From: an uncultured Pseudomonadales bacterium
Lineage (GTDB): Bacteria > Pseudomonadota > Gammaproteobacteria > Pseudomonadales > UBA7434
DNA length: 64,000 nt
Direction: 5' to 3'
Assembly: GCA_943788835.1 (NCBI GenBank)
Contig: CALSRU010000012.1
Span: 62,001 to 126,000, forward strand
Positions 2,438-55,881 of this stretch are shown here, piece after piece. The notes below the pieces were generated by a model. The model worked only from the letters and a program-made list of their open reading frames with translations. It searched no databases and was not told the DNA's origin. Numbering within the stretch: position 1 is the stretch's first letter; each line of letters opens with the position of its first letter. The translations under genes and the position numbers were made by a program.

Positions 2438-2449
2438 TTATACAGTTAA

Positions 2450-4486: not shown

Positions 4487-4514
4487 TTGAGTTGTTGGAT
4501 GAGTTGCCAAGTTT

Positions 4515-4967: not shown

Positions 4968-5033
4968 ATGAGCGGCTAATAACCCCATTGGGTTGGTAAT
5001 TCCGCATAGGCCAGGGCGCTTTCAGTGCAGGTA

Positions 5034-6053: not shown

Positions 6054-6201
6054 TCTTTATTCCGTTGCTGTGAAGAAAAGCTAAGCGAGCATTTTACCAC
6101 GTGCAGCGTGTTATCGGCACGGTGTTTAAAAACCGCTTGATGCCCCCCATTGCCTTCGCTTTAATGGCTTTGGTTGCGATCACCTTCTGTGGAGATTAAA
6201 A

Positions 6202-35287: not shown

Positions 35288-35389
35288 TTTTTGCGATGGT
35301 AGTTATTGGGTAAAATTGGAGGCTGAGAGGCTAGCCGAAATATGCTCTAATAGGAATATATGATAGGTACGATAACGGAGACGGCAACG

Positions 35390-35932
35390 ATGTACAAAAT
35401 GGTTTGGGGTTTAATAGCATTGTGCGGGCTTTCGTTGCATGCGGCCGCTAATGAAATTGAATTATCCATAAGTGATGAGATTATTGATTTAAGGTTTACG
35501 GCCAATTACGAGCAAGATTTTAGTGGCACCTTCGCTTTGCTGCATGCAGATCATAATAATGTAAAAAGTGACCAGGTGAGTTATACCTTTGCTACTCGTG
35601 GAACCATTGACCGGGTTGATATAACCTTGGGTACGCGGCTCTTTCTTTTGGGCGTAGATAGTGACGATGGCTTTGGCGCTGCACTAGGTCTTGGTGCAAG
35701 CACGAATCTTGTGGGCAGGGTCTTCATAACCGGCGAAGTCTTTTACGCACCTGAAATTATTACAGGCGGCGATTTCGATAGCACTCTCGATGCAGAGCTG
35801 CGTTTGTGTTATCAGCTTATTGATAACGGTTTGTTGTATATTGGTTATCGTCAGTTTGAGGTCGATAGCAAGCAGATTGGTAAGCAAGATATTTACGAAG
35901 ACCCATTTATCGGCATTAAATTTACATTCTAA
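35390..35932 (+). CDS. YfaZ-like outer membrane protein
   Basis: Signal peptide, beta-barrel pattern; C-terminal ...PFIGIKFTF; ORF opens at 35360. Confidence 0.65.
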   Translation: MYKMVWGLIALCGLSLHAAANEIELSISDEIIDLRFTANYEQDFSGTFALLHADHNNVKSDQVSYTFATRGTIDRVDITLGTRLFLLGVDSDDGFGAALGLGASTNLVGRVFITGEVFYAPEIITGGDFDSTLDAELRLCYQLIDNGLLYIGYRQFEVDSKQIGKQDIYEDPFIGIKFTF

Positions 35933-36039
35933 CTTGGGTTGTCGGTTTCACAGGCGATGGAAGGGTGTAGCAATAAAATCTGCAGCCCTCAGGGTTTTTG
36001 CTTCTGTGCCTTGTGCCTATTGAATGATGCCTAATACCT

Positions 36040-38133: not shown

Positions 38134-39620
38134 TGTTGCCCGATAATAAAATTTTGGCCGCGGTAGATATTGGATCTAACAGTATCCATATTGTTATTGC
38201 GCGCGTTGTGAAGGGTTCTTTGCAGATCATCAGCAGCCATCGTGAGCGAACGCAGCTTGCTTTGGGTTTAGGCGAAGAGCTTTTGTTAACCGGTGCTGCC
38301 ATGCAGCGAGGCTGGGAGTGTTTGCAGCGCATGTCCAAGTTGCTGAGCGATGCTCAGCCTGATCAAGTGCGAGTGGTGGCGACATATGCATTGCGCGCGG
38401 CACATAATCGAGATCTTTTTTTAGAGCAAGCAGAGACATTGCTAGGCTACCCCATTGAAGTGATTGCCGGCCGCGAAGAGGCGCGCCTTATCTTTCAAGC
38501 GATTGCTCATACAGAGAAAATAGAGCACGAATCTCTAGTGTTTGATATAGGTGGTGGGAGTACCGAGTTGGCGGCGGGTGTGAGCTTTGATCCGCAATTT
38601 CGTGCCAGTTGTGCAATGGGCTGTGTGAACTATCGAGAGCAGTTTTTCAGTAAGGGTTTTACTCGTGAAGATTTCGCACAGGCTAATCGCGCAGCGCTGC
38701 AGTCACTAGAAGCTTACCTGCCTCAGTTAGGACGGCGTAAGTGGCACAGTGTCTATGCCACTTCAGGGTCTGCCAAGGCGTTAGCGCAGGCAGCGAGGCA
38801 GGATGATGACACTGATGCTTCGGTAAGCTTGCAGCAGCTATTGTCTTTGCGAGAAAAAATTATTGCTCATAACGGGGTTGGCTGGTTGGGCGAGTTAGGT
38901 ATAAGTGATAGCCGCACCTTGTTAGTTCCGGGTGGGTTGGCAATTATGATTGCCTGTATGCAGTGCCTAACGATAGACCGTATTTATTATAGAGACGTTG
39001 CGTTGCGTGAAGGGGTGCTGTACGAATTGGTCGAGCAAATGCGCCACCCCGACATTCGGGTTCGCACACGAACCAGTATGCAGTTGCGCTACTGTACAGA
39101 CACAGCCCATGCTGAGCGCGTAACCGATACGGTGGGTGCTATTTTAGAGCGCTTGCCTACTGCTTGGTTGGGTAGCAGGGAAGATGTGCATGAGATTTTG
39201 TATGAGGCCGCGCATTTACATGAAGTTGGGTTGCAAATCAGTGCGGGTGGTTTGCAAAAACATTCAGCCTATATTTTAGCAAGCAGTGATTTACCCGGAT
39301 ATAACGAAGAGCAGCAGTTATTATTGGCGAGTTTGGTAGGCGCGCACCGGAAAAAAATTCGTTTAGATGATTTGCCTAAGTTGCGTATTATTGAGCGTCC
39401 AGCTTTGCTGCGGCTTATTATCGTATTGCGCTTAGCCATCATTTTCAATATCACGCGATGGCCTATCGATTTGACCCATGTTGAGCTTAGCGTCCAGCCG
39501 GATGAGCTGCATATCGTGGTTGATAAACAGTTGATAGAAGCTCGGCAATTACTAGAGGCGGATTTACAGCGTGAAAGTGATCTGCTGGCAGCCGTTAATT
39601 TTAATTTAATTATTCGCTAG
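38130..39620 (+). CDS. ppx: Exopolyphosphatase (Ppx/GppA family)
   Basis: AAVDIGSNSIHIVIARV, FDIGGGSTEL; overlaps ppk by 4 bp. Confidence 0.95.
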   Translation: MMLPDNKILAAVDIGSNSIHIVIARVVKGSLQIISSHRERTQLALGLGEELLLTGAAMQRGWECLQRMSKLLSDAQPDQVRVVATYALRAAHNRDLFLEQAETLLGYPIEVIAGREEARLIFQAIAHTEKIEHESLVFDIGGGSTELAAGVSFDPQFRASCAMGCVNYREQFFSKGFTREDFAQANRAALQSLEAYLPQLGRRKWHSVYATSGSAKALAQAARQDDDTDASVSLQQLLSLREKIIAHNGVGWLGELGISDSRTLLVPGGLAIMIACMQCLTIDRIYYRDVALREGVLYELVEQMRHPDIRVRTRTSMQLRYCTDTAHAERVTDTVGAILERLPTAWLGSREDVHEILYEAAHLHEVGLQISAGGLQKHSAYILASSDLPGYNEEQQLLLASLVGAHRKKIRLDDLPKLRIIERPALLRLIIVLRLAIIFNITRWPIDLTHVELSVQPDELHIVVDKQLIEARQLLEADLQRESDLLAAVNFNLIIR

Positions 39621-39689
39621 TCACTTTCCATTGAGCGCCCGTTTAATAGCGGTCTGGCGCGTAACAATTTTTTAACGTTGATAGGCATT

Positions 39690-40583
39690 ATGAATATACT
39701 CATTACCGGAGGCACTGGTCTCATCGGCTGCCATTTTATGAATACGGTGGGCGGGCATCAATACACGGTATTAACTCGTTCGCCCGAGCAGGCAAAGAAA
39801 AATCTCCCCGTATCGGTTCGCCTAATCAGTAGCTTAACTGAGTTGACCACGCTTGATATTTTCGATGCGGTTATTAATTTGGCTGGCGAGCCTATTATTG
39901 ATAAGCGTTGGACAAAAAAGCAAAAGGCAGTGATCAGTAATAGTCGCTGGGATATTACTCGGCAGTTGGTCGATCTCTTTCGAGCGAGTAGTGAACCTCC
40001 GGCAGTATTTTTAAGTGGTTCAGCGATCGGTGTTTATGGCGATCAGGGGGATGTGATGGTTGATGAGACCTTCTCTTCGCTGCCCGATGATTTTGCTGCG
40101 CAGTTGTGTGCACGTTGGGAGGCTCTTGCGCAAGAAGCTGCTTCTTATACTCGTGTCGTTTGTCTGCGAACAGGTATTGTTTTAGATGCGCAAGCCGGTG
40201 CGCTAGCTAAAATGCTGCTGCCCTTTAAGTTGGGTTTAGGTGGGCCTGTGGCCAAGGGCGAGCAGTTCATGTCATGGATTCATATTGATGATATGGTGCG
40301 GGCAATTGAGTTTTTACTGGTGCAGTCGCAAGCTTGTGGCGCGTATAACTTGGTCGCGCCAGAGCCCGTACGAAATCGTGATTTTACGCAAGCACTAGCA
40401 GCACAGCTAAAAAGATGGGCGATATTGCCTGCACCTAAAAAGCTTTTACAGGCTTTGCTAGGCGAGTCATCGGCTTTACTGCTCGATAGTCAGCGAGTGG
40501 TTCCTAAAAGATTATTGGAGGAGGATTTTATTTTTAGCTTCGCCGAAATAAATTCCGCACTGAACGATTTGCTAAAGAAGTAA
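39690..40583 (+). CDS. TIGR01777 family SDR/epimerase (YfcH-like)
   Basis: MNILITGGTGLIGCHFM, NLAGEPIIDKRWTKKQKAVISNSR, SGSAIGVYGDQGD. Confidence 0.9.
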   Translation: MNILITGGTGLIGCHFMNTVGGHQYTVLTRSPEQAKKNLPVSVRLISSLTELTTLDIFDAVINLAGEPIIDKRWTKKQKAVISNSRWDITRQLVDLFRASSEPPAVFLSGSAIGVYGDQGDVMVDETFSSLPDDFAAQLCARWEALAQEAASYTRVVCLRTGIVLDAQAGALAKMLLPFKLGLGGPVAKGEQFMSWIHIDDMVRAIEFLLVQSQACGAYNLVAPEPVRNRDFTQALAAQLKRWAILPAPKKLLQALLGESSALLLDSQRVVPKRLLEEDFIFSFAEINSALNDLLKK

Positions 40584-40735
40584 TTTATAACATTAAACGA
40601 TGAATATTTTTGTAGTGCGCAGATGTAGTAAATGGCATGTCATAGGCATAGCGATGAGTGGCTATTTAATTGCACCGTTAGAATTTTATCTTCGTGTCTA
40701 GAGTGGTTATAAGAATATGCTTTTGAGCCAAAAAA

Positions 40736-41693
40736 TTAGCGGCCCAGTACAACTAGCACTTTACGCTTTCTGTCGCCAGAAAAGGGCAATCGTCCGTGCA
40801 TGGCTAGGTTGTTGTCGACCACTGCAACATCACCGTCTTGCCAAGGTAAATTGTACGAGTGCTGTTTAGCGATATCGACTATGGTGTCGAGAAGATCTTT
40901 GCTGAAGTCCGTATTATCGCCAAAGCATAACGCGCTGCTAGGATTTTCTTTTACGCCTTTCCAGCCAGAATAGGCCGCAATGATCTGATTAAAAAATACT
41001 TTTCGGCCGTCATCCAGTGACCGTATTGCGGGCAGTGCAGCAGTTTGAGCTTTGAGTGAACCATCGTCCATCCATTGCCACACATAGCCTAAGGTTTTTA
41101 ATTTTTTTTCAGCTTCAGAAACTGAAGTGACACTCAATGTACCTTTCCAGCTTCTGCCTTGCCCTGTTTCAGGATCGTCAGTCAAAGGCATGAGGGTAGT
41201 GTATTTCACCCCTGTCCTGCTCTAGCTTTTCGGTAAGTTCAGGTTCTTTCGAATGGAGTTTTTCGTATATGAGATCGGATCTGCATAGTATGGTTTCACC
41301 GCCTTTTTCCGCTGCACTTTCGCAAAACAAAGAAATAATGTTTGGATAAAATGGCGTCTGTGCCATTTCATTGTGCAGATAGATTTCAATATTTTTGGGC
41401 GCTTCGTTGGCAGTAAAGACGCGTTCAGTATGGTTGATCCGCACGGCATTAGATAAAGATTCTTTATAAGTAAAGTTCTCGTAGCCAAAAGCTGAGAAAA
41501 AATCATCATAACTCATGGCATCGGTAATCGGAAAGCCACGGAACAGTACGGCGCCGGTGTTTGCAAGTTCTTTTTTTATTTGTGCCTTGTTGTCAGCAGC
41601 CCACGCCTCAGCATCAGTCAACGTTTGGACTGAGCCATCGTTTACTATAATGGTAGGGAAGTTCTTAGAGTCAAACTCTAAATCATTAAGCAT
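40736..41693 (-). pseudogene. TauD/TfdA (SyrP-like) Fe(II)/2-oxoglutarate dioxygenase, single-base frameshift at C4 run 41209-41212
   Basis: N-terminal ORF (41178-41693) has GAVLFRGFP and YLHNEMAQ (HxE); C-terminal ORF (40736-41209) continues KYTTLMPLTDDPETGQGRSWKGTL to VVDNNLAMHGRLPFSG (distal His). Confidence 0.85.
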
Positions 41694-41722
41694 GCTACTT
41701 ATATAGGGAATAACGCTCGCTC

Positions 41723-42682
41723 CTAATCATAAATTGGATTGAATCGATGAAAAGCGGCTTCGCAAAAGTCGCCGGGGTCGTTAAAACGGCGATTTTTATT
41801 CAAGGCAGCAATACTGTCCATCTCGGTGTTACTTAGTTCAAAGTCAAATATATCTCGGTTTTCTTTTAGGCGGCTTACCTGATTGCTTTTACAAATTAGC
41901 GTGCAGCCGCGTTGAATCCCCCATCGCAGGACTATTTGTGCCGGCGTTTTTTGATATTTTTCGGCCATTTCAATTATCTTTGATTGAGCCAGTACAGAGT
42001 CTTTGGCGTCAGCCATATCTAATTCGAGATAGGACATTGCGCCTAGGGGCGAAAACGTGGTGACTGCAATGCCATAGTTTTTGGCCAGTCGTATTAGTCG
42101 CTGTTGCGTTAGGTAGGGATGCGATTCAATTTGTAGATCGGCTGGCTTGATTTTGGCATAGGCCATTAAATCATTGAGCAATCCTGTGTTGTAATTACAG
42201 ACGCCGATAGTTTTGGCTAAGCCGGCCTCCACGAGCGATTCCATCGCTTGCCAAGTTTCATGTAAAGGTACGGCTGCAACCTCCATTTTCGGTTCGCTTG
42301 CGTCAGGATCGAAAATCCACTCGGGGGGGTATCGAGTTTCAAAAGGAATGAATGGTTGCGCGATAGGGAAGTGAATTAAATAGGAATCTATGTAATCAAT
42401 ATTCAAGTCCCTTAGGGTTCTCTCAAGTGCCGGCTTTACATGTTCTTTACCATGGTACGTGTTCCATAGCTTGGATACGATGAATAGCTCGCTCCTTGAG
42501 CAGACGCCGTCAGCGATCGCTCGGGTAATACCCTGGCCAACTTCTGCCTCGTTGCCGTAGTCGCATGCACTATCTAAATGGCGATAGCCCACTGAAATTG
42601 CGTTATATACGACGTCAGCACACGCGTCTTTTGGAATCTTCCATAGACCTAGGCCTATATCTGCAGGTCTTTGTCCTGACAT
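41723..42682 (-). CDS. Aldo/keto reductase, aldose (D-xylose) reductase type
   Basis: GLGLWKIPKDACADVVYNAISVGYRHLDSACDYGNEAEVG, FIVSKLWNTYH, SYLIHFPIAQPFIPFETRYPPEW, RFNDPGDF. Confidence 0.9.
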   Translation of the reverse strand: MSGQRPADIGLGLWKIPKDACADVVYNAISVGYRHLDSACDYGNEAEVGQGITRAIADGVCSRSELFIVSKLWNTYHGKEHVKPALERTLRDLNIDYIDSYLIHFPIAQPFIPFETRYPPEWIFDPDASEPKMEVAAVPLHETWQAMESLVEAGLAKTIGVCNYNTGLLNDLMAYAKIKPADLQIESHPYLTQQRLIRLAKNYGIAVTTFSPLGAMSYLELDMADAKDSVLAQSKIIEMAEKYQKTPAQIVLRWGIQRGCTLICKSNQVSRLKENRDIFDFELSNTEMDSIAALNKNRRFNDPGDFCEAAFHRFNPIYD

Positions 42683-42715
42683 TTTTTCCTCTTAGAAGGT
42701 TGACTAATAATGTTT

Positions 42716-42743
42716 AACATGTATCTTATATAAGACATATGTT
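42716..42743. promoter_or_regulatory. Candidate GntR operator, copy 1 (divergent promoter region)
   Basis: AACATGTATCTTATATAAGACATATGTT; 18-bp core identical to 50326-50343. Confidence 0.7.
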
Positions 42744-42885
42744 TTGTCAATCCCCTATGATTGGGCAATAGTGCGTTCCAGTAAAAGTTTAGGCAATTCT
42801 TTTGCGTTGTCGGCGGTGCCCGTCGACTTGGAGCTCAATGCCCGAGCCAAGCCATTTTTAAGGCGATAAACAATGTGAGGCCTTT

Positions 42886-44631
42886 GTGGCTGATCTTCGG
42901 AATACCTCCATGTTATATAAGTTGCTCCCGGGTCTGCTGTGGCTGCAAGGCTATCGTCGCGATATGTTTAAAAGCGATATTGTTGCCGGCGTTACGATTG
43001 CCTTTATGCTGATTCCTCAGGGTATGGCTTACGCTGTAGTGGCGGGTTTGCCTCCGGAGTACGGCCTTTACGCCTGCGTTGTTCCACCGATCATTTACTC
43101 TTTACTCGGCACATCAAACAAAATTTCTATGGGCCCAGTGGCTTTGGACTCAATTCTGATTTTAACCGGTTTGAGCGTCTTGGCAGAGCCCGGTTCTGAT
43201 CAATATTTAGAGCTTGCTATCGCACTTACATTCCTAGTGGGTGTGATCCAAAGTTGTTTGGGATTTCTTCGTTTCGGTTTTATCGCTAATTTCTTATCGC
43301 ATCCTGTTATTGTTGGTTATACCTCAGCCGCTGCGTTAATTATTATGGGTAGCCAGCTGGAAAATCTGCTCGGAGTGAAAGTGCAAGGCGGCAACATCTT
43401 TCAGCTGGTCTATCAACTCTTACAGCAATTCACGCATTGGAGCTGGGCGACTGTCGGTGTCGGTGTTTTTGGGCTTCTTTTCATGATTTTACCGAAGCAA
43501 ATCTTCCCTGCATTGCCAGCAGCACTCCTACTAATGATGTTGGGAATGTTGGCAGCGGGATTCGGCGACGCACGCAGCTATGGTGTAGATGTCATTGATT
43601 ATGTGCCGCAGGGTATGCCGTCGCTTAATATGCCCACATTATCGGTGAGTGAATACAGCCGTTTATTCCCGGTTGCTCTAACCGTAGCATTAATGGGCTA
43701 TGTAGGAACTATGTCGATCTGCAAGTCCCAAGAAAAACTCACAGATAAAATTAGCCCCCAGCCTAATCAGGAGCTCGTGGCCGTTGGGCTTGCTAATTTT
43801 GTTGGTGCGCTGTTCAAGGCTTTCCCAGTTTCCGCTAGTTTCTCTCGCAGCGCTGCTTTTCGTGCGGCAGGCTCACTCACGCAAGTTTCTGCGGTTACGT
43901 CATCGTTGTTTATCATTATAGTCATTCTTTATTTGACTCCCCTTTTTCAGCAGTTCCCATTACCGAAAGCGTTGTTGTCAGCCATCATCATTGTTTCAGT
44001 AGCAGGCCTTTTTAAGTACGCATTAATGAAACAACTATGTCAACAAAATAAGCTTGAGTTTATCCTCCTGATGGTTACGTTTTGGATGACATTGCTGCTG
44101 GGTGTTCAGCAGGGGCTCCTCATTGGCGTCGCCTTGTCCATCTTGATCCTGATTTATAATACGGCCAACCCCCACATGACTGAATTAGGTGCAGTTGGCG
44201 ACGGTATTTATCGAAACACCAGCCGATTCTCGCAAGCGGTAATTCGCAACGATATTTTGATCTTCCGTTTTGATGCCCCTTTGTATTTTGCCAACAAAGA
44301 CTTTTTTGTACAAAAGGTTTATCACTGGATTCAAGACAGGAATTCGAATGTTTTACGCTATGTGGTGTTCGATGCGGAGGCCGTCAATAGTATTGATAGC
44401 ACTGCTATTATCATGCTGCAGCGCATGATCGAAAATTTGGGCGAGCAGCATATTAAATTCATTATTACCAACCCTATCGGCCCAGTCAGAGACGCTATTA
44501 AAGAGTCTCCTTTGCATGCCTACATGTGCGAAGAGTCGATTTTTTCAACTATCAATGATGCGATTGTTTTTATTGATGAGGGTATTAACCGCCATCCGCA
44601 GCACGCTTTGCAAACAAATAGTCAGCTATGA
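42886..44631 (+). CDS. SulP family anion transporter with STAS domain
   Basis: DIVAGVTIAFMLIPQGMAYAVVAGLPPEYGLYACVVPPIIYSLLGTSNKISMGPVA; C-terminal STAS region VVFDAEAVNSIDSTAIIMLQRM. Confidence 0.9.
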   Translation: MADLRNTSMLYKLLPGLLWLQGYRRDMFKSDIVAGVTIAFMLIPQGMAYAVVAGLPPEYGLYACVVPPIIYSLLGTSNKISMGPVALDSILILTGLSVLAEPGSDQYLELAIALTFLVGVIQSCLGFLRFGFIANFLSHPVIVGYTSAAALIIMGSQLENLLGVKVQGGNIFQLVYQLLQQFTHWSWATVGVGVFGLLFMILPKQIFPALPAALLLMMLGMLAAGFGDARSYGVDVIDYVPQGMPSLNMPTLSVSEYSRLFPVALTVALMGYVGTMSICKSQEKLTDKISPQPNQELVAVGLANFVGALFKAFPVSASFSRSAAFRAAGSLTQVSAVTSSLFIIIVILYLTPLFQQFPLPKALLSAIIIVSVAGLFKYALMKQLCQQNKLEFILLMVTFWMTLLLGVQQGLLIGVALSILILIYNTANPHMTELGAVGDGIYRNTSRFSQAVIRNDILIFRFDAPLYFANKDFFVQKVYHWIQDRNSNVLRYVVFDAEAVNSIDSTAIIMLQRMIENLGEQHIKFIITNPIGPVRDAIKESPLHAYMCEESIFSTINDAIVFIDEGINRHPQHALQTNSQL

Positions 44632-46253
44632 ATATACGAGAAAACAATCTCAATAAGCTAAGTGAAGACGAGATCTATGACGTCTTGATACTCGGCGGAG
44701 GCATTAATGGCGCGGTGGCAGCCGCCTCTTTAGCGGCCAAAGGTGTTAGGGTTGCGTTAATCGAAAAAGGCGACTTTGCGGGTGAAACCAGTTCTAACTC
44801 TTCCAATTTGGCGTGGGGGGGTATCAAATATTTAGAAAGTTATGAATTACTCTTAGTCAATAATTTGTGCAAAAGTAGAAATCGTCTGATGCGCAGCTAT
44901 CCGTCGACCGTCAAGGAAGTCCGTTTTTTGACAACCGTTGCAAAAGGTTTTCGTTACCCACCTTTTTTAATTTACCTTGGTGCGATCTTATATTGGTTTA
45001 TCGGTCGTTGCTTTACTAAAAAGCCAACATTCCTAAGCTGCCGGCAGCTCATTAAGAAAGACCCCAGTATAAATGTTATTGATGTTGCAGGTGGTCTTGA
45101 GTATTCAGATTGCTTTCTCTATGACAACGATGCGCGATTCGTTTTTAACTTTATTCGTAGTGCTTTGGATTACGGTTGCATAGCAGTAAACTATGTCGAA
45201 TCACAGGGCGCTGCACGAGAGGGTGATGTCTGGGTTACACAGGCAAGAGATAATATTACCGGTAATCAATTCAGAATTAGGTCCAAAGTTTTGATTAATG
45301 CCTGCGGCCCACATGTTGACTTACACAATGAATTAACTAGTCAGCTAACAGTGCATCGACACCTCTTTTCAAAAGGTGTCCACCTGATTGTTGACAGGCT
45401 TACTGCTAGCGATAAAGTTCTAGCTTTTTTTGCGAGTGATGGGCGTTTATTTTTTGTAATTCCTATGGGCCCAAAGACTTGTATTGGCACGACTGACTCC
45501 CAAGTTGATACCCCTAACGTGTCTGTGGAGCCGGATGATCGAACGTTTATTTTGGACAATGCCAATAGACTGTTAAATTTGTCGAGGCCACTGACAGTTG
45601 AGGATATCATCGCAGAAAGGTGCGGTGTCAGACCGCTAGCAGTAAAGGGGAGTGATGGGGTTGCTGATTGGATTAAGCTCTCGAGGAAACATGCCATTGA
45701 TGTCAATGAGCGTGATCGTCATGTCAGTATTTTTGGCGGTAAGCTTACCGACTGCATTAATGTTGGCGATGAAGTGGCAAAGATTATTGCCCAGCTAGGC
45801 GTGGATATTCCATTCGCCAATAAGATTTGGTTCGGCGAGTCGTCCAGAGCAATTAAAAAAGATTTTTTTCATCAGGCTGCTCTTATGAATCTCGATAATT
45901 TCACGGATCCGGCATCATCTGAGCCGTTGACGCAGAGGTTGTGGCGTCGTTACGGCGCAGAAGCGCTGCAAATGCTGGAGGATATTCGTAATGATCCAGA
46001 AAATTCTAAGGTTCTTATTGAGAACGCAGAGTATTTGCGCTGCGAGCTACGTCATGCTGCTCAGAGTGAAATGGTCACCAAGCTCGAAGATTTTTTGCGA
46101 AGGCGGTCGAAAATCGAATTAGTTGTTAGAAGAAGCGATATTATTAATGGAGAGGGGATAGTCGAGGCATGTGACATTTTGTTTGGCGACCAAGCCGAGA
46201 AAAAGTTGCAGGAGTACCTCGAATCATTTGAGCAAAGTCCGCGCGCTCATTAG
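44628..46253 (+). CDS. FAD-dependent oxidoreductase, glycerol-3-phosphate dehydrogenase (GlpD)-like
   Basis: DVLILGGGINGAVAAASLAAKGVRVALIEKGDFAGETSSNSSNLAWGGIKYLES; IGTTDSQVD; 4-bp overlap with SulP gene. Confidence 0.8.
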   Translation: MNIRENNLNKLSEDEIYDVLILGGGINGAVAAASLAAKGVRVALIEKGDFAGETSSNSSNLAWGGIKYLESYELLLVNNLCKSRNRLMRSYPSTVKEVRFLTTVAKGFRYPPFLIYLGAILYWFIGRCFTKKPTFLSCRQLIKKDPSINVIDVAGGLEYSDCFLYDNDARFVFNFIRSALDYGCIAVNYVESQGAAREGDVWVTQARDNITGNQFRIRSKVLINACGPHVDLHNELTSQLTVHRHLFSKGVHLIVDRLTASDKVLAFFASDGRLFFVIPMGPKTCIGTTDSQVDTPNVSVEPDDRTFILDNANRLLNLSRPLTVEDIIAERCGVRPLAVKGSDGVADWIKLSRKHAIDVNERDRHVSIFGGKLTDCINVGDEVAKIIAQLGVDIPFANKIWFGESSRAIKKDFFHQAALMNLDNFTDPASSEPLTQRLWRRYGAEALQMLEDIRNDPENSKVLIENAEYLRCELRHAAQSEMVTKLEDFLRRRSKIELVVRRSDIINGEGIVEACDILFGDQAEKKLQEYLESFEQSPRAH

Positions 46254-46302
46254 ATCGCGAGCGTCCATATGTGAAGGGCGTTTATTTCAGTGTTGATTTT
46301 AA

Positions 46303-48396
46303 TTGGAGAATATTTTGACCGACGATTTAAGTTTGAGCGTACCTGATTGGAATGTAGTTCCACAGTTATCAGTCAACGGGCCTCTAGAGCATTCCTCGTC
46401 GCGATGCGTCGTTATTCCAACTACGCAAGGCAGTTTAAAGATTAGTCTGCATCAGTTCGGCGCACGCCTGCATTTTGGCGTCTGCAGCTTTGGCGGTGGC
46501 ATCGAGAATGCCTATGGCATGTTGCTTGACGACGCCTTTGTGCACGCTCCGCCATTCGACTTGATTGTGGATAGTAGTCAAGCGGCGGTGAGCAAAATCG
46601 GTGGAGGAGAGTTTATCTTAACCATCAATCACTCACCTCTCTCGTTTGAGTTAAGGAAGGGCGAGCGTCTCATTCAACAGTCGCCCACTGATGGGCATTT
46701 TGTGCGTCAATTTCGGTTGCCGCCTGTAGCTCGGATGGATAAAGGTTGGCTAGTTACCTTAGACCTGCGTGCCAGCGAATCAGTTTATGGCTTAGGAGAG
46801 AAATGGGGTAAGCTTGATAAGCGTGGACAGTTGATTCGCTCATTTAACCATGATGCGCTTGGTGTGAATGCTGAAATATCCTATAAAAACACGCCTTTTG
46901 CATGGAGCAATAGTGGGTGGGGTGCTTTTGTGCATACCGCAGCCCCCGTTCTTCATAGTGTTGGCTACGCGCCTTGGTCTCAGCGCGCTTATGGCATCTT
47001 GGTTGAGGATAGTGCTTTAGATCTTTTCCTTTTAGCCGGCAAGGATGGTGGCGATATTATTGGCCATTACACAGCATTGACGGGCCGCGCTCCGGTGCCG
47101 CCACGCTGGAGTACAGGGGTCATTCTGTCTAAAGCCTATTACCAAGATGCCGATGAGCTATTAGCAACAGCGCGAGAAGTTAGAGCGCGTAAAATGCCGT
47201 GTGATGTTATTACCATCGATGGTCGAGCTTGGCAGGACACAGAAACGCGTTTTACCTTCGACTGGGATCCTAAGCGCTACACTGATCCTGGCGCTGTTAT
47301 TGATGAATTAAAAACTTTAAATTTTAAAGTTTGCTTGTGGGAGTATCCGCTGGTTTCTGTTAAGCACACTCTGTTTTCTATGATGGAGAAAAAGGGGTGG
47401 TTGTTAAAAGATCGCAGAACGGGTGAGGCGTACCGTTATAATTGGGATACCAGTTGTTTTGGTGATGTGCTTACCGAGCTGCCCGAGTCAGGTATAGTCG
47501 ATTTCACACACCCTGAGGCCTATAATTTCTGGCGCGACTCACATAAATCGTTATTCGACCTGGGTGTCGATATGATCAAAGCTGATTTTGGTGAGCAGAT
47601 TGAATCCAATATGGTTGCATACAATGGTGATGCGGGCGATGTACTGCACAGCGTATATAGCTTGTTGTATAACCGTTGTGTTTATGAAGCAGCCGAGATG
47701 TATTGTCAGTCGGGCGCCTTTCTATTTAGCCGGTCATCGTGGATCGGGTCGCAGCGCTATCCGTCCCAGTGGGGTGGAGATCCGCAAGCCGACTGGGGTG
47801 GATTAGCGGGCAGTATCCGTGGCGGCTTGAGCTGGGGCATGACAGGTGCACCTTTTTATGCCACCGACGTGGGCGGTTTTTATGGTGATCAGCGTGATGC
47901 CGAATTATATGTGCGCTGGATTCAATTTGCGATTTTTTCAGCGCACATACGGCTGCATGGTATTGGGCAGCGTGAACCGTGGTCATACGAGGGAGAGCCT
48001 CTAGGTGAAGAGGCTAATGCTGCAGCTACACAGGCGCTAAAGCTGCGTTATCGCTTGTTACCATATATACAGCAGGCTATGCAGGTGGCGAGTGATTCTG
48101 GCTTGCCCGTGCAAAGAGCGATGGCTTTAGCATTTCCTAACGATCGAGCCGCATGGGCTTTTGAAGAGCAATTTATGTTGGGTGACGATCTTCTTGTTGC
48201 GCCGTGTCTGCAAGCAGGCGGGTGCACCGAGTTTTATCTGCCTGCCGGCCGATGGCAGCGGTTGTTGCATGACGAGGTGTTAGAGGGCGGCCGATGCCAT
48301 CAGTTACAATTACCTCTCGATGAGATGGCAGTTTTTTTCCCAGAAGGCGCAGTGATTCCGCTAGGGCCGGTTGTTGAAAGTACATCCGAATTATAA
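46303..48396 (+). CDS. Glycoside hydrolase family 31 (alpha-xylosidase-like)
   Basis: GVDMIKADFGEQ nucleophile region, QWGGDPQADWGGLAGSIRGGLSWGMTG acid/base region, RLHG, FYLPAGRW; start may be internal. Confidence 0.88.
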   Translation: MENILTDDLSLSVPDWNVVPQLSVNGPLEHSSSRCVVIPTTQGSLKISLHQFGARLHFGVCSFGGGIENAYGMLLDDAFVHAPPFDLIVDSSQAAVSKIGGGEFILTINHSPLSFELRKGERLIQQSPTDGHFVRQFRLPPVARMDKGWLVTLDLRASESVYGLGEKWGKLDKRGQLIRSFNHDALGVNAEISYKNTPFAWSNSGWGAFVHTAAPVLHSVGYAPWSQRAYGILVEDSALDLFLLAGKDGGDIIGHYTALTGRAPVPPRWSTGVILSKAYYQDADELLATAREVRARKMPCDVITIDGRAWQDTETRFTFDWDPKRYTDPGAVIDELKTLNFKVCLWEYPLVSVKHTLFSMMEKKGWLLKDRRTGEAYRYNWDTSCFGDVLTELPESGIVDFTHPEAYNFWRDSHKSLFDLGVDMIKADFGEQIESNMVAYNGDAGDVLHSVYSLLYNRCVYEAAEMYCQSGAFLFSRSSWIGSQRYPSQWGGDPQADWGGLAGSIRGGLSWGMTGAPFYATDVGGFYGDQRDAELYVRWIQFAIFSAHIRLHGIGQREPWSYEGEPLGEEANAAATQALKLRYRLLPYIQQAMQVASDSGLPVQRAMALAFPNDRAAWAFEEQFMLGDDLLVAPCLQAGGCTEFYLPAGRWQRLLHDEVLEGGRCHQLQLPLDEMAVFFPEGAVIPLGPVVESTSEL

Positions 48397-48443
48397 AAAT
48401 CGTTAAGTAATATAGGCTCAATAGTATTGGGAGTAATAATAAG

Positions 48444-50174
48444 ATGGCATTGAACGACCTGTTATTGACCTTTGGTTCATGCGCCTTTTTTATGGCCGTC
48501 GTGGCATTGATCTCGTATCAAAAAACGAAGGGAGACGTAGGTACAAAAGATGGATATTTTTTAGCCGGGCGTGGCTTAACCGGGGTTTTTATTGCCGGTT
48601 CTATGTTGCTGACTAATTTATCGGCTGAGCAACTTATAGGTTTAAATGGTTCGGCCTATGGCTACAACATGAGCAGTATGGCGTGGGAGGTCACGGCTGC
48701 ATTTAGCACGATCTGCATGGCGCTAATTTTTCTACCTAGATATTTGAGCGGAGCTTTTACTACTTTGCCTGAATTTTTAAGTAGTCGTTTTGATGATGAT
48801 GTAAGACGTCTAACGGTTATTTTGTTTATGGTGGGCTATAGTCTGGTCACTATTCCTTCGGTTTTATATTCAGGCTCTATTGCAGTGATGCGACTTTTTG
48901 ATGTGCCAGGTCTACTGGAGGTTAGTTACAGTCAAGGTTTGATGGTGACCATTCTTGCGGTGGGTATTATAGGCGGTCTTTACGCCGTGTTTGGTGGTCT
49001 AAAGGCGGTGGCCATTTCCGATACGATTAATGGTTTGGGTTTGCTGATAATCGGTATACTCGTTCCGGTACTTGGGTTCGCGGCTTTAGGCAACGGAAGT
49101 TTCTTAGATGGCGTTACGGCAGTAACAACCACGCATACTGAAAAGTTAAATGCCATTGGCACCAGCACTGATCCGACGCCATTTGGAACCATTTTTACAG
49201 GAATGATCTTTGCTAACCTAGCGTATTGGTGCACCAATCAATATGTCATTCAGCGAACGCTCGGAGCTAAAAATCTAGCCGAAGGTCAGAAGGGTGTCAT
49301 TTTTTCTGGCTTTTTTAAAGTGATGGTTCCTTTCATGATGATGATGCCGGGAATTGTCGCTTTCCATCTTTATGGAGGTGGGTTGCAATCAATTGACCTG
49401 GCTTTTCCACAACTGATCAAAGATGTTCTTCCGGTTTATATGTCGGGATTTTTCCTTGCCGTTTTGCTGGGTGCGGTGTTTAGTTCATTTAATTCCTTAT
49501 TAAATAGCGCTGCAACTTTGTTTTGCTTAGATGTCTATGAGCCTCTAAAAAAGGGCAAAGTGAGCGACAAGGAAATGATCAAGGTGGCCAAGATTGCGAG
49601 TGTAGTGATTGCAATCTTTTCGTTTATTGTAGCGCCTCTATTGCAGTATGCACCCGAAGGCCTGTGGCAGGTTATCCGAATTTTTACGGGTTTTTATAAT
49701 ATCCCTATTGTCGCTGTCGTTTTAATCGGCCTCTTCACTAAGCGCGTCCCTGGGCTGGGTGCCAAGGTGGCCATTATCTTTCATGTTATCGCCTATGGTT
49801 TATTAAAGTTTGTTTTTGATGAACAAGTCGATATTCATTTCTTGCACTTGTATGCGATTTTGTTCTTTATTGAAATTGCCATTATGTTGGTGATTGGTTA
49901 CCTCAAGCCTCTAGATGAGCCTTGGCAGTTTGAGCGTAAGAACAAGGTCGATATGGTTCCGTGGGCCTATGCCATACCGGTTTCTATTACTCTCTTCTCT
50001 TGCGTTGCAGCTTTATATGTTCTTTTTTCGCCTTTAGGCGTTGTTGGCGGCTTTGGTTCTCTTTTTTGGCCTGCTTTGTTCTGCATCATTGCAGCTAACA
50101 TGTTTGCTTGGTTTTACAGCTTAAAGTACTGGCGCCATCGCTATGCGAATTATATTGCAGTCAATGTTGGCTAG
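48444..50174 (+). CDS. Solute:sodium symporter (SSS/SLC5 family)
   Basis: Multiple TM segments; GYFLAGRGLTGVFIAGSMLLTNLSAEQLIGLNGSAYGYNMSSMAWE. Confidence 0.88.
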   Translation: MALNDLLLTFGSCAFFMAVVALISYQKTKGDVGTKDGYFLAGRGLTGVFIAGSMLLTNLSAEQLIGLNGSAYGYNMSSMAWEVTAAFSTICMALIFLPRYLSGAFTTLPEFLSSRFDDDVRRLTVILFMVGYSLVTIPSVLYSGSIAVMRLFDVPGLLEVSYSQGLMVTILAVGIIGGLYAVFGGLKAVAISDTINGLGLLIIGILVPVLGFAALGNGSFLDGVTAVTTTHTEKLNAIGTSTDPTPFGTIFTGMIFANLAYWCTNQYVIQRTLGAKNLAEGQKGVIFSGFFKVMVPFMMMMPGIVAFHLYGGGLQSIDLAFPQLIKDVLPVYMSGFFLAVLLGAVFSSFNSLLNSAATLFCLDVYEPLKKGKVSDKEMIKVAKIASVVIAIFSFIVAPLLQYAPEGLWQVIRIFTGFYNIPIVAVVLIGLFTKRVPGLGAKVAIIFHVIAYGLLKFVFDEQVDIHFLHLYAILFFIEIAIMLVIGYLKPLDEPWQFERKNKVDMVPWAYAIPVSITLFSCVAALYVLFSPLGVVGGFGSLFWPALFCIIAANMFAWFYSLKYWRHRYANYIAVNVG

Positions 50175-50325
50175 ACTCGGTTGGCGACTGCTTAGCGCGG
50201 GCCAATCCGGTGCGGCGTCGCACCAATAAAATCAAAAAAAAATAAAAAAGCGGCAGATTTGGTTAAATTGCAACCGTTTAGGTTTTTATTTAATCGTTAT
50301 TGGCCTCCATCGTATATTAATTACG

Positions 50326-50343
50326 GTATCTTATATAAGACAT
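50326..50343. promoter_or_regulatory. Candidate GntR operator, copy 2 (upstream of TonB-dependent receptor)
   Basis: GTATCTTATATAAGACAT, identical to 42721-42738. Confidence 0.7.
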
Positions 50344-50473
50344 CAGATGTATGCTTTTGCGTGACTGATAGTACATCAGTTAACGATCTGGGCCCTAAGA
50401 CCTAGACGAGTGACAAGATAAAAATTTAGTAAGCATATAAATCAAAACGTAAAACCAATGGGAGAGTTGACTT

Positions 50474-52744
50474 ATGTTCAATAAAAAAATGGTTTGTCGG
50501 GCTTTAGCCCTGGCAATACCTGCGGGCTTGGTGTTTCAAGTTCCTGTTGCAGGGGCTGCCGACCTTGAAGAGGTGGTCGTGACAGCGCAAAAGCGCGAGC
50601 AAAAACTCAGTGATGTGCCAATTGCTGTGTCGGTTCTGGGAGCCGACCAAATTGATGCGGCTTTTGCCAATAATATCGAGTCGTTGCAGGCCTATGTTCC
50701 TTCAGTGAGCTTTCGAACGGGTAATACAACGCGAAACTCAGCCTTAACCGTGCGCGGAATTGGCACCATTTCTTTCAGTGTGGCTGCCGAGCCTAGCGTT
50801 TCAACCGTGGTTGATAATGTCGTGCTGGGCCGTTCTGGCCAAGCGTTCGGCGATTTGTATGATTTGGAGCGCGTCGAAGTGTTGCGTGGTCCTCAAGGTA
50901 CGCTATTTGGTAAAAATGCCTCGGCTGGCGTGGTTAATATGGTTACCAAAAAGCCAACAGAAGAATTTGAAGGCTACCTTGATTTATCGTTTTTTCAAGA
51001 TGATGAATATCGCGCTAAAGCACGCGTTTCAGGTAAGTTAACCGACCGAATTAACGCCAGCTTAACAGTCCTTGATGCTGAGTTTGATGGTTACATCGAT
51101 AACGTTTACAACAACGAAAAAATCAATGGTTACGATAAGCAGGGTGTTCGCGCCATGTTTGATATTGAGCTGAGCGACGATACGCAAGCGTTGGTGATTT
51201 ATGAAGACTACAGTGCCGATAACGACTGTTGTGCCGATTTAGTAGCACGCACAACGAATGACTCACGACCACTAGACCCCGAGGTATTCGTCAGTGGTGC
51301 GGGCTTGGATCTAGACCAGCGCAAAGCGGATAATGACTTTACGACGCGCACTTTAGATTCAACGACTGCGCTCTCGGTACAGTTAACGAAGCAAATTGGC
51401 GATATGACATTAACATCCATCACTGCGCGCAGAACTTGGGAGAATACTGAGTTTCGTGAAGGTGATTTCACCTCGGAAAATGGTGACTTAGCATCGCCCG
51501 TTGACTTTAGCACCGTAGGCTTTCAGCTGCACGATGTAGGTCCTCAAGAGTGGCGCCAATTCTCGCAAGAAGTTCGTTTGGCCTCGAATGGCGACGAATT
51601 TTTTGATTGGCAAGTGGGTGCCTTCTATTGGGATATCGACTCGGCTCGTAATTTTACGCGTGATGCAAGTTGCCAAGTAACAGCCGACAATACTGCGATT
51701 GTTGATGCCGCGAATGCCGCAGACCCCAATCTAGGCTTAACCTGTTTGCAAAACGACATTGTCTCTGCCACGGCTTACATGAGCACTGAGTTTAGTAACT
51801 ATGCGGTGTTTGGTGATGGTAGCCTGGATTTGACGGATGCCTTAACGGTACTGTTTGGTTTGCGTTACACCGACGATGAAGTGAGCTTTAAGCACAACCG
51901 TGTTAATAACGACGAATTTGGCCGTCGCGGTGTAGGCGTGAGAGAAGCTGCGTTAAATACTGATTTTGAAGGCTCGACTGATGACACGAATCTATCAGGA
52001 AAAATTGGCGCGCAATTGCGTCTGAGCCCGCAAAATATGGTCTATGCGACTTACTCTACTGGCTATAAAGGCCCTGCATTCAATGTTTTTTATAACATGA
52101 GCGCGAATGATATCAATCCAATTGACGCTGAAGAATCCAAGTCAGCTGAGCTGGGTTATAAATTCACGGGTGATAGCGTATTCTTGAGTGTAGCGCTTTA
52201 TCAAACTGATATTGATGACTTCCAGGCTAATGATTTCGATGCATCCGATGGCACCACGACGACCGGCTTCACTAACGGTGGCGATGTTGAGACACAAGGT
52301 GTTGAAGTGGACTTTCAGTGGCGCGCAACCGAGCAACTGAGTCTGATGGGTGGCTTGGCTGTATCTGACGCTGAGACTACGCTGGGCGATGATCTGCCTT
52401 TTGCCCCCGACACCAAGTACACGTTAGCGGGTGTTTATGACATTCCATTAGATAGTGGTGCGGCGTTCGTTGTGAATGCGTCATACGTTTTCACCGATGA
52501 GCAGTTGTCGGGTAATATCGGTCAAAACGGGCAAACCAACCCCGAGGTATTGCTACCTGATTATGAAATCGTTAATGCCAGCGTGACGTACCACGCTCCG
52601 AATGATCAATATCGGGTGTCTTTGATCGGTAAGAACTTAACCGATGACTCTTATGCCACTACTTACAGCGGTGATGGCTTCAGATATCAAATTCCACGTG
52701 ATGCAGACCGATATTTTGGTGCGAACTTCCGCTTTAACTTCTAA
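50474..52744 (+). CDS. TonB-dependent receptor
   Basis: DLEEVVVTAQKREQKLSDVPIAVSVL TonB box/plug; LRGPQGTLFGKNASAGVVN; C-terminal YFGANFRFNF. Confidence 0.95.
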   Translation: MFNKKMVCRALALAIPAGLVFQVPVAGAADLEEVVVTAQKREQKLSDVPIAVSVLGADQIDAAFANNIESLQAYVPSVSFRTGNTTRNSALTVRGIGTISFSVAAEPSVSTVVDNVVLGRSGQAFGDLYDLERVEVLRGPQGTLFGKNASAGVVNMVTKKPTEEFEGYLDLSFFQDDEYRAKARVSGKLTDRINASLTVLDAEFDGYIDNVYNNEKINGYDKQGVRAMFDIELSDDTQALVIYEDYSADNDCCADLVARTTNDSRPLDPEVFVSGAGLDLDQRKADNDFTTRTLDSTTALSVQLTKQIGDMTLTSITARRTWENTEFREGDFTSENGDLASPVDFSTVGFQLHDVGPQEWRQFSQEVRLASNGDEFFDWQVGAFYWDIDSARNFTRDASCQVTADNTAIVDAANAADPNLGLTCLQNDIVSATAYMSTEFSNYAVFGDGSLDLTDALTVLFGLRYTDDEVSFKHNRVNNDEFGRRGVGVREAALNTDFEGSTDDTNLSGKIGAQLRLSPQNMVYATYSTGYKGPAFNVFYNMSANDINPIDAEESKSAELGYKFTGDSVFLSVALYQTDIDDFQANDFDASDGTTTTGFTNGGDVETQGVEVDFQWRATEQLSLMGGLAVSDAETTLGDDLPFAPDTKYTLAGVYDIPLDSGAAFVVNASYVFTDEQLSGNIGQNGQTNPEVLLPDYEIVNASVTYHAPNDQYRVSLIGKNLTDDSYATTYSGDGFRYQIPRDADRYFGANFRFNF

Positions 52745-52995
52745 ATAGTTCAGCGCAAATTCGGCGCAAAGTAGTCGAGTAAAAGGGGGCGGAATTTCTG
52801 CCCCTTTTTCTTGCACGAAAGAATTTTGGTGCTTCTTTTTAGCGGCGATTAGCCGTAACATGGAAAATATTGAAGTGGTTTTTTAGTTTAAAAATCGATG
52901 TTGTCAGTGCAGGTACGCCGAGCAGTTAGCGTGGTTTGTTGTGATGGTTTGGTCGATATAACCAAAAGCTTGAAGGGTATTCTTAGGGTCGCATT

Positions 52996-53715
52996 ATGTC
53001 TTCAATGGCAAATTTCCAGCCTCTGTATAAGCAAGTGTATGAGTTGCTGACTGCGCGTTTAGTGTCAGGGCAGTGGAAGGCTTCCGCCCCTATTCCAAGT
53101 GAAATGGCGCTCGCAAAAGAGTTGGGCGTCAGTCAGGGCACTGTGCGCAAGGCACTCAACCAAATGGTGGCTGAACAATTGCTCGAGCGCCAGCAGGGCA
53201 AAGGCACTTTTGTTGCGGAGCATACGCAGGAAAGCTCATTGTTCCGTTTTTTCAGATTGCGTGAGCCGCATGGCGAAAGCCTTATCCCTCGAACTCAAGT
53301 GCTTTCTTCTTTGCGTCGCGCGGCCAAGAAAAACGAGCGTGAGATTTTTTCTTTAGATTCCAATGAGCAGGTCGTAGAGTTACGACGTCTGCGTTTTTTA
53401 AAAGACACTCCAATTATTTGCGAGAAAGTGATTCAGCCGTTGTCGATTTTCCCCGACATTGATAAAGAACCACAGTTGCCTAATTCTCTTTATACACTGT
53501 ACCAAGAAAAATACGGGATTAGTATTGTTTCGGTAAACGATGAGTTGCGTGCGCATACATTGCCTTCCGAGTTTGCCGAACTTTTGGAGCTGCCCGTGGG
53601 CGCGCCGGTTTTGGCCGTAGAGCGAGCAAGCAAGCATATTGATGGTCGAGTGGTAGAGTTAAGTTATGCTTATTGCAACACCGAGCGTTTTGTTTACTCG
53701 GTTCAGCATAAGTAG
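52996..53715 (+). CDS. GntR family transcriptional regulator (HutC/UTRA type)
   Basis: PLYKQVYELLTARLVSGQWKASAPIPSEMALAKELGVSQGTVRKALNQMVAEQLLERQQGKGTFV. Confidence 0.92.
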   Translation: MSSMANFQPLYKQVYELLTARLVSGQWKASAPIPSEMALAKELGVSQGTVRKALNQMVAEQLLERQQGKGTFVAEHTQESSLFRFFRLREPHGESLIPRTQVLSSLRRAAKKNEREIFSLDSNEQVVELRRLRFLKDTPIICEKVIQPLSIFPDIDKEPQLPNSLYTLYQEKYGISIVSVNDELRAHTLPSEFAELLELPVGAPVLAVERASKHIDGRVVELSYAYCNTERFVYSVQHK

Positions 53716-54071
53716 AGCATATTGGTCGCTGTACTTGTCTAGTATTGGTATTAACTAGCCCCTTCCTTGTTTTCCGCAGAGGTGACTACAGTTACCGTAT
53801 GACCTTTTTTATTCTGGTACGCTAGAAAAGTCGAATGTAAAGCACCAGCCTTTTAATAGTGGGCGATTCTGGTAATCAGCCATAGCATTTTTAGTTTGTC
53901 GTCGAATGACTAACCGATTAGGGCGTTACTTATTTGCTTTTTCTACAGCGTGATTTTTTAACGTTAGGCAACGCCTTATGATTTTTTAAAACAGGCAGCT
54001 TACAGTTGACTTAAGAGATGATATTGGTCAAGTACAATTTTTTCTGCTGGTAAGTCCTTAGAGGATGAGAA

Positions 54072-54674
54072 ATGAATTTTGATGTTGCAGAATTAGAACC
54101 ACAACAAAAATATCGTCTGCTCAATGGCGGTGTCACGCCAAGGCCTATTGCATGGGTCAGTACCACCTCTAAAAAAGGAGTAGCCAACTTGGCGCCATAT
54201 TCTTTCTTTACAGTGGCAAGCTGTAATCCGCCTGTGCTCCTCTACACACAGGTAGCGCAAAGAAATGGCATAGATAAAGATACCTTGCAAAACTTGAGAG
54301 AGACTGGCGAGTGCGTGGTTAATATTGTTAATGCAGATATGTTAGAGAAAATGAATATGACTAGCGCAGCCCTTCAGCTCGATGAAAGTGAGTTTGAATT
54401 TGCCCAAGTAGAGCAGAGCAGTAGTTGCAAAGTGGCTCCCTTTTCTGTGAGGCAGGCGCCTATTCGTTATGAGTGTACGTTGCGAGAGATAATGCTGTTG
54501 AGTGAATTGCCTGCAGGTGGCACCGTTGTGTTGTTAGATGTGAAATCGATCTATGTTCAAGATGAGCTGTATGATGATGGGCTGATTAATCAAAATTTGA
54601 TTGATTCGGTAGGGCGTATGGGTGGCGATGCCTACAGCTTTACGTCAAGCCTCGAGGAGCTTAAGCGCCCTTGA
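54072..54674 (+). CDS. Flavin reductase-like FMN-binding split-barrel protein
   Basis: GGVTPRPIAWVSTTSKKGVANLAPYSFFTVASCNPPVLLY. Confidence 0.85.
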   Translation: MNFDVAELEPQQKYRLLNGGVTPRPIAWVSTTSKKGVANLAPYSFFTVASCNPPVLLYTQVAQRNGIDKDTLQNLRETGECVVNIVNADMLEKMNMTSAALQLDESEFEFAQVEQSSSCKVAPFSVRQAPIRYECTLREIMLLSELPAGGTVVLLDVKSIYVQDELYDDGLINQNLIDSVGRMGGDAYSFTSSLEELKRP

Positions 54675-54844
54675 TCAGCTGGTGTAGTTGTGAATAACGA
54701 TAGGCACTCCTGCGCCGCGATTTTTCTGTAAAGTTTAAATCCTTCGTCAATTGGCTGTTCGTCTTATTTTTATTCGTTTGTGCTGGATGGCGAGTCGCGG
54801 CCAGCAGTAGTTGCCTTATAGGTGTCCGCTTCGCTGTGCTAGGA

Positions 54845-55507
54845 TTAGGCCGCTATTTTTTTTCGAGTAACCATACATCCCACTAATCCGCAAGCCATCA
54901 GGCTGAGTATGCCGGGCTCAGGGACGTTAGCCGTTACGCTTACTGAGTCTATAAAGTTGCCTACCGTGCCGGATTTAGGCTTCATTGAAGTGAATTGCAA
55001 GGTGGTTTTATCGCCTGTACCGACGAAAGTGTTTGAAAATAAACTCCAGCTACCTTTTACGTGATCCTTCTGTACCGTATTAAAAATCGTACTGTCCGCG
55101 GTAAAGAGTTCAAATCGAAATTTTTCTTTATTATTCTTGCGTGCGCGATAGGCAAAGCTAACCGTGTATTCTTGATTTTCTACCGTCTCAAACTCTTGGA
55201 AGATAGAAAAAGGGCCGCCGTGGTTAGGATGGGAATTAAGCTCACCATGCTGAACGCCGCTGTGTGACCCGACGCCGTTAAAGCCTGTCCTCCAAATTTC
55301 TATATTATCTCCGCCCCAGCTGTGACCTTGTTCGGCGGCAAAGTAGTTCCAGCGCGACGAGCATGAGCGGCCGCCGTTGTTCGATGTAACATCGCCGCAA
55401 TTACTGATGTCGGGAGACTCGAAGCCACCCCCAATAATTAGGTTGGCTTGAGCGTTACTTGAAATTGCTAGTAAGGCGATCAATAGACCGATTGACTGTT
55501 TACTCAT
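54845..55507 (-). CDS. PEP-CTERM protein with DUF642-like domain
   Basis: Signal peptide; NLIIGGGFESPDI...; C-terminal VPEPGILSLMACGLVGCMVTRKK. Confidence 0.8.
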   Translation of the reverse strand: MSKQSIGLLIALLAISSNAQANLIIGGGFESPDISNCGDVTSNNGGRSCSSRWNYFAAEQGHSWGGDNIEIWRTGFNGVGSHSGVQHGELNSHPNHGGPFSIFQEFETVENQEYTVSFAYRARKNNKEKFRFELFTADSTIFNTVQKDHVKGSWSLFSNTFVGTGDKTTLQFTSMKPKSGTVGNFIDSVSVTANVPEPGILSLMACGLVGCMVTRKKIAA

Positions 55508-55881
55508 GACTGTGTGAGATCTCTGCTGTCTAAGTTTGAGGCCATTTTGGCTGCGCGAAATTATAGACGAAATAATAATCAATTACTATGCCATAATTGA
55601 TACACACTTGTTTTTAAATAGCTTTTGCTGCGGCTGAGCAGTTCCTTCGATCGCCAACTGTAATTTTTTTCGACACTTGTCCGTAAGGAAGGGTCGGACG
55701 CATGGTTCTTGCCGATTAAGCGGCTGCACCAGCGTTGCAGTCACGGCCTATATTTTTATCGCTTTTAACGGACTTCTTGCCCCATTATAATTGTCCGGCA
55801 GTCATGGATGGGTCTAGTCTATCCTGTCGTCCAATGGTCATTCTAGTTCCTTATAACAAATAAGATAGGTGTTCTCTCGAC

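Follow-up and report, generated by a model that had tools for sequence, protein, structure and literature searches.

A genomic island of an uncultured Pseudomonadales bacterium with a YicI-related GH31 glycosidase as candidate sulfoquinovosidase

Which sugar is taken up and degraded by the catabolic gene block of an uncultured Pseudomonadales bacterium, and does the GH31 glycosidase of that block release it? The block lies in a 64,000-nucleotide stretch of contig CALSRU010000012.1 (assembly GCA_943788835.1, positions 62,001 to 126,000), hereafter the window. A preliminary description of this DNA had suggested, in hedged terms, a sulfoquinovose (SQ) island of the dioxygenase type; all nine open reading frames (ORFs) that it named were found where it had placed them and in the families it had given. 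We conclude that the island is very probably a unit for the uptake and sulfolytic catabolism of SQ glycosides, which form the head groups of sulfolipids in plants and algae, of the sulfo-SDO (dioxygenase) type, in which a YicI-related GH31 enzyme would act as the sulfoquinovosidase (SQase). This reading, drawn from sequence comparison, is backed by the gene context, by operon-for-operon replacement with GH188, by sulfo-EMP-type and sulfo-ED (Entner-Doudoroff) clusters that contain the same GH31, and by a common operator.

The extent of the island can be read directly from a comparison with a genome of the same genus (G007). By blastn against its contig C31 (L163), window positions 35259-40584 align with 1-5290 and positions 53770-55684 with 5292-7205; the positions on either side of the island, 40584 and 53770, thus lie one base apart there, and the flanking DNA is about 91% identical. 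Because the flanks abut in G007, which marks an empty site, the island comprises exactly eight genes, encoding the dioxygenase, an aldo-keto reductase (AKR), a SulP transporter, a GlpD-like oxidoreductase, the GH31 glycosidase, an SSS symporter, a TonB receptor and a GntR regulator. The compact block proposed earlier is real, as an island that is cleanly present or absent, but its boundary differs: the flavin reductase that had been counted as a member lies in the right flank and is 98% conserved in the island-free G007. Being outside the island and not co-conserved with it, this reductase is ruled out as part of a two-component SQ monooxygenase. The GH31 gene is present in 2 of the 12 same-genus genomes searched. 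In the same-genus genome G010, the same block encodes proteins 71-88% identical to those of the window and has other outer neighbours, an extra GntR gene and an intact dioxygenase.

An SQ substrate is suggested by the genes that accompany relatives of this GH31. When 84,980 species genomes were scanned with a five-member alignment, 190 relatives were obtained, from which 80 loci were kept; the gene context of these loci was scored by tblastn within each locus stretch. The 80 GH31 proteins of this clade are 51-71% identical and come from SAR92/Porticoccaceae, Paraglaciecola, Glaciecola, Alteromonas, Pseudoalteromonas, Arenicella, Nitrospirillum, Rhodothalassium, Marinicaulis and others. SQ-pathway genes stand beside the GH31 gene in 60 of the 80 loci, namely a dioxygenase in 40, a set of isomerase, PfkB kinase and aldolase, or part of it, in 19, and ED genes in one. 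In loci of the second kind, the kinase shares 40-45% identity with YihV, the aldolase shares 25-29% with YihT, and the only NCBIfam match of the isomerase is to sulfoquinovose isomerase (5e-80, below the strict cut-off of that model). Among 19 genomes checked whose GH31 locus showed no dioxygenase, 10, including every Paraglaciecola tested, encode one elsewhere. In G112, a genome with an ED-type cluster, a TRAP transporter and a TauE exporter flank the GH31 gene, and the same cluster encodes a short-chain dehydrogenase/reductase (SDR), a lactonase, a dehydratase, an aldolase and an aldehyde dehydrogenase. The best structure for this SDR is the Pseudomonas putida SQ dehydrogenase, and it keeps both sulfonate-binding arginines named for that enzyme (PMC12133307). 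The dehydratase, taken alone, would be an L-arabinonate dehydratase, and it is the SDR and the context that support an ED assignment. None of the classifiable loci of the clade is a xylose cluster.

The identity of the substrate is further constrained by operons in which the GH31 gene is replaced. Four other families of the order possess a compact operon encoding the symporter, the AKR, the dioxygenase and a Gfo/Idh/MocA protein, with no GH31; the SSS symporter is 65-72% identical between the island and these sister operons. The best structures for the Gfo/Idh/MocA protein are 8qc2 and 8qc3, which are the GH188 SQases FlSqgA and ArSqgA (PMC10755693). All 16 aligned sister-operon proteins have an intact sulfonate loop, Arg-x-Pro-Phe-Leu-x-Lys, and intact Lys and Glu-Lys-Cys-Cys-His motifs, and the distal His is likewise intact in all 15 whose sequence reaches that site. 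Because the sister operons hold GH188-like proteins with an intact sulfonate loop, the substrate of the symporter-AKR-dioxygenase set is anchored as a sulfoquinovoside. Within the stretches searched by tblastn, none of the 80 clade loci contains GH188, and a Gfo/Idh protein with the SqgA sulfonate loop was not found in the GH31-bearing genomes G000 (the window genome), G010, G386 and G112; in G257, GH188 is on a separate contig of an assembly with 6% contamination. Complementarity of GH188 and the known GH31 SQases has been reported (PMC10755693). In G040, a clade GH31 of only 302 aa that lacks most of the barrel lies between the AKR and SSS genes (L025:955-1863), and the genome also holds a GH188-like protein; either a replacement in progress or an assembly fault is possible.

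What kind of GH31 enzyme, then, does the island encode? Among solved structures it is closest to 5f7c and YicI, which score about 330-346 bits, compared with 145 bits for YihQ and near 120 for AtSQase and SftG. In a maximum-likelihood tree of 44 rows, the clade is supported at 100/100 and is placed next to YicI at 93/94, its exact sisterhood with YicI being less sure given the long branches, and its grouping with YihQ, AtSQase and SftG is rejected (approximately unbiased (AU) test, p=0.014). The predicted structure (pLDDT 86, pTM 0.90) also matches YicI best, and the protein has no evident signal peptide. A tree with YihQ and YicI had been proposed as a check, with grouping among alpha-xylosidases counting against the sulfonate model. 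The enzyme does fall beside the alpha-xylosidase YicI; this position, however, does not refute an SQ substrate, because no classifiable locus of the clade is a xylose cluster.

The GH31 barrel is present, and the catalytic Asp pair, nucleophile D428 and acid/base D493, is invariant in 85 members of the clade, as are G307, R308, T315, R316 and E347. R316 aligns with Arg301 of YihQ, that is, with the sulfonate Arg of three known SQases, where YicI has Trp; R308 and E347 are found in no outgroup. The sulfonate site of YihQ comprises R301, W304 and Y508; the last two correspond to Phe319 and Phe526 in the window enzyme. The preliminary description had seen neither the Arg nor the Trp of the YihQ type: the Trp is indeed absent, but Arg316 occupies the Arg301 column. 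In the alignment, Gly307-Arg308-Ala309 replaces the Cys-Phe pair of YicI, with R308-A309 at the position of the pair, which blocks C6 in that enzyme. The window GH31 thus falls outside both types: it is not monophyletic with YihQ, AtSQase and SftG and keeps their Arg but not the Trp and Tyr, and it has neither the Cys-Phe pair nor the xylose context of YicI. R308 and R316 are plausible candidates for the residues that bind the sulfonate. A YihQ homology search of 274 Gammaproteobacteria at 1e-60 gave no match and, having had no positive control, shows nothing.

The island also shares a palindrome, TCTTATATAAGA, with other loci of the clade. The 80 loci contain 86 exact sites, whereas ten first-order Markov simulations gave 0, and the palindrome nearly always lies at most 300 bp upstream of genes for a TonB receptor, GH31, AKR, GntR or kinase. 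In the window genome it occurs only twice, both times in the island, and it is absent genome-wide from three same-genus genomes without the island. G112 likewise has only two sites genome-wide, one before the GH31/sulfo-ED cluster and one before an unlinked AKR-dioxygenase pair (L023 and L062). A GntR homologue accompanies the palindrome in 39 of 45 loci. The conservation of the site is thus directly observed, and the palindrome is a candidate GntR operator at two island promoters. The exact site is not universal, being absent from the SAR92 clade genome H231 (G386) and from the genomes with the GH188 operon. No SQ operator of this kind was found in the literature searched, and the known E. 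coli SQ regulator CsqR belongs to another family than GntR.

Positions of the features are collected in Table 1. Two genes of the right flank may be noted beside them. A small secreted protein with a PEP-CTERM-like sorting tail is encoded directly right of the flavin reductase (window 54845-55582). Farther on (window 55882-59589, L161:12120-15443), a 1235-aa secreted protein has a discoidin-like stretch, Asp-rich repeats and CxxCH haem motifs, and a 1107-aa paralogue of it is encoded elsewhere in the genome.

Table 1. The island, its genes and candidate operator sites, and the adjoining flavin reductase gene (window positions).
Feature	Position	Strand	Basis or remark
Island, 13,185 bp	40585-53769		Empty site in same-genus genome G007, from blastn with its contig C31
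SqoD-like Fe(II)/2-oxoglutarate (2OG) dioxygenase, broken frame, two ORFs (41178-41693 and 40736-41209)	40736-41693	-	Pfam TauD in each half
Aldo-keto reductase, candidate 6-dehydroglucose reductase (SquF role)	41723-42682	-	Pfam Aldo_ket_red
Palindrome TCTTATATAAGA, candidate GntR operator	42724-42735		Between divergent AKR and SulP operons
SulP and STAS anion transporter, candidate sulfite/sulfate exporter	42886-44631	+	TIGR00815 above cut-off
GlpD-like FAD glycerol-3-phosphate dehydrogenase, candidate user of released glycerol	44628-46253	+	
GH31 glycosidase, YicI-related clade, candidate sulfoquinovosidase	46303-48396	+	Pfam 273 bits
SSS sodium:solute symporter, YidK type, candidate SQ or SQ-glycerol importer	48444-50174	+	NF007790 above cut-off
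Palindrome TCTTATATAAGA, candidate GntR operator	50329-50340		Upstream of TonB receptor
TonB-dependent outer-membrane receptor, candidate SQ-glycoside uptake	50474-52744	+	
GntR/UTRA regulator, candidate SQ-responsive repressor	52996-53715	+	
Flavin reductase, flanking gene outside island	54072-54674		

The reading frame of the dioxygenase is interrupted close to a short run of G, at a point between about 41180 and 41215. The HxE...H triad is kept, with the HxE in the first part and the distal His, together with the 2OG Arg, in the second. Both halves are about 73-75% identical to the intact G010 protein, a level similar to that of the neighbouring AKR, SulP, GlpD and GH31, and the dioxygenase is intact in G010 and most clade loci. 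The break is either a recent mutation or a sequence error, and the strain may thus not carry out C-S cleavage. The best matches of the dioxygenase in the PDB are 9yut and At3g21360; in a fold search, 9yut was not among the matches listed. Directly beyond the G010 dioxygenase lie genes for two luciferase-like monooxygenases (L021:963-2889), which were found in none of the other loci by blastp with the G010 copies, no wider search having been made. The dioxygenases of two loci, L078 and L079 (G169 and G351), belong to a second clade and share 66% and 51% identity with 9yut. Both loci have a closer GH188 homologue in the neighbourhood, and L078 also has a different AKR and a TRAP transporter; they are possibly SqoD clusters of the Marinobacterium type.

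The catalytic tetrad of the AKR (D37, Y42, K71, H104) is intact, and the gene adjoins that of the dioxygenase in 38 of the 39 loci scored; the two are co-conserved at 60-77% identity, and the AKR is a candidate 6-dehydroglucose reductase (SquF). TauE/SafE takes the place of SulP in the Alteromonas and Pseudoalteromonas loci. GlpD is kept beside GH31 in several SAR92-type loci, and the window genome encodes GlpK and no other close GlpD. Together, these parts suggest a route in which SQ-glycerol would be imported by the TonB receptor and the SSS symporter and, as context and active site suggest, hydrolysed by GH31 in the cytoplasm to SQ and glycerol. By analogy with the known sulfo-SDO pathway, the dioxygenase would oxidise C6, yielding sulfite and 6-dehydroglucose, and the AKR would reduce the latter to glucose. 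SulP, or TauE in Alteromonas and Pseudoalteromonas, would export the sulfur anion, the released glycerol would be used through GlpK and the island GlpD, and GntR would control the two promoters by binding TCTTATATAAGA.

Several observations weigh against the SQ assignment. Phylogenetically, the GH31 is nearest an alpha-xylosidase and lacks the Trp and Tyr of YihQ; the dioxygenase is frameshifted in the window genome; some ten of the 80 loci, among them several short contigs, have no pathway assignment; 6 of the 45 stretches with the palindrome lack GntR; and we infer every reaction, the enzymes of the pathway being named by homology. Could the island serve xyloside use instead, with the GH31 as alpha-xylosidase and the AKR as xylose reductase feeding pentose metabolism? 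The sisterhood with YicI in sequence, tree and predicted fold would fit, as would the yeast-type aldose and xylose reductases that are the best solved relatives of the AKR, and a XylFGH-like transporter with an FGGY kinase that the genome encodes at an unlinked place (L161:3984-9635, G000:C4). However, xylose isomerase (TIGR02630) was not matched in this 99% complete genome, although control genomes were matched, and Gly-Arg-Ala stands in place of the C6-blocking pair of YicI. The clade co-occurs with SQ enzymes in most of its loci, and the same AKR and dioxygenase accompany GH188 SQases, whereas a true xylosidase-like GH31 of the same order, which adjoins xylA and xylB, is only 36-38% identical to the clade. 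On the missing xylA, the active site and the context, we reject xyloside use, which appears highly improbable.

A subtler alternative is that the island does degrade SQ, which enters free, while the substrate of the GH31 is some other alpha-glycoside, for example an alpha-glucoside or another sulfosugar conjugate. The position of the enzyme outside the characterised SQase subfamily and sulfonate contacts that come from alignment only are compatible with this view, but the clade GH31 is the glycosidase in three kinds of SQ cluster, never occurs with GH188 in the 80 loci and stands in for GH188 beside the same symporter, so that we regard such a substrate as unlikely. Decay of the island to a non-functional state in this strain is a different matter, as it does not compete with the substrate assignment. 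It is a real if doubtful possibility: the broken dioxygenase frame near a G run, the complete lack of the island in the near relative G007 and the truncated GH31 of G040 would agree with it, but the dioxygenase halves have diverged from G010 no more than the neighbouring genes, no second lesion was seen, and a base-calling error is equally possible.

Beyond the window, the SQ assignment extends to an evolutionary proposal that we consider likely: the clade would represent a second GH31 SQase lineage, derived from an alpha-xylosidase-like ancestor, with its own two-Arg sulfonate site, and common to sulfo-SDO, sulfo-EMP-type and sulfo-ED clusters of Alpha- and Gammaproteobacteria, in many of them under one GntR/UTRA regulator acting through TCTTATATAAGA. 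The SQases named in the literature compared, which did not include the GH31 subfamily paper, Ye 2023, Abayakoon 2018 and Ma 2025, are those of YihQ-type GH31 and GH188 only. The sulfo-SDO pathway is already known; within that literature, the YicI-related clade as SQase and the operator appear to be new. If the assignment is true, surveys with YihQ or GH188 markers would miss the clade. Should it be a third SQase type, common in Alteromonadaceae, SAR92/Porticoccaceae and many alphaproteobacteria, marine sulfolipid turnover would be undercounted, with SQ production put at ~10 billion tons a year (PMC10755693). The palindrome would offer a sequence-only handle for further SQ genes, as in G112, where it ties two unlinked loci.

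Among known systems, the sulfo-SDO/sulfo-ASDO pathway of Marinobacterium aestuarii, with SqoD and SquF (Ye et al. 2023, as described in PMC12890257), has the same parts as the island, namely a 2OG dioxygenase, a reductase, an importer and a sulfur-anion exporter, a likeness drawn from the published description and not from the SqoD sequence. Reported carriers of the pathway are Oceanospirillaceae and Alteromonadaceae (PMC13372026), and the latter family also accounts for many of the 80 clade loci. The window differs from the M. aestuarii system in a GH31 that is not of a known SQase type and in its frameshifted dioxygenase. The sulfo-ED cluster of P. putida SQ1 resembles the enzyme set of G112, where it occurs with a clade GH31 and TCTTATATAAGA, whereas the window itself has no ED enzymes. 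The GH188 NAD-dependent SQases (SqgA, PMC10755693) occupy the same slot as the island GH31 beside SSS, AKR and dioxygenase, but have the unrelated Gfo/Idh/MocA fold and are absent from the window genome. YihQ-type SQases (YihQ, AtSQase, SftG, BmSQase) share with the window enzyme the GH31 fold, the Asp pair, an Arg at the R301 column and residence in SQ clusters; the window GH31 differs in belonging to a separate clade next to YicI, in having Phe for W304 and Y508, and in the extra invariant Arg308 and Glu347. YicI of E. coli, an alpha-xylosidase, has the closest fold and belongs to the neighbouring clade, but lacks Arg at 308 and 316, has the Cys-Phe pair and is found in a xyloside context.

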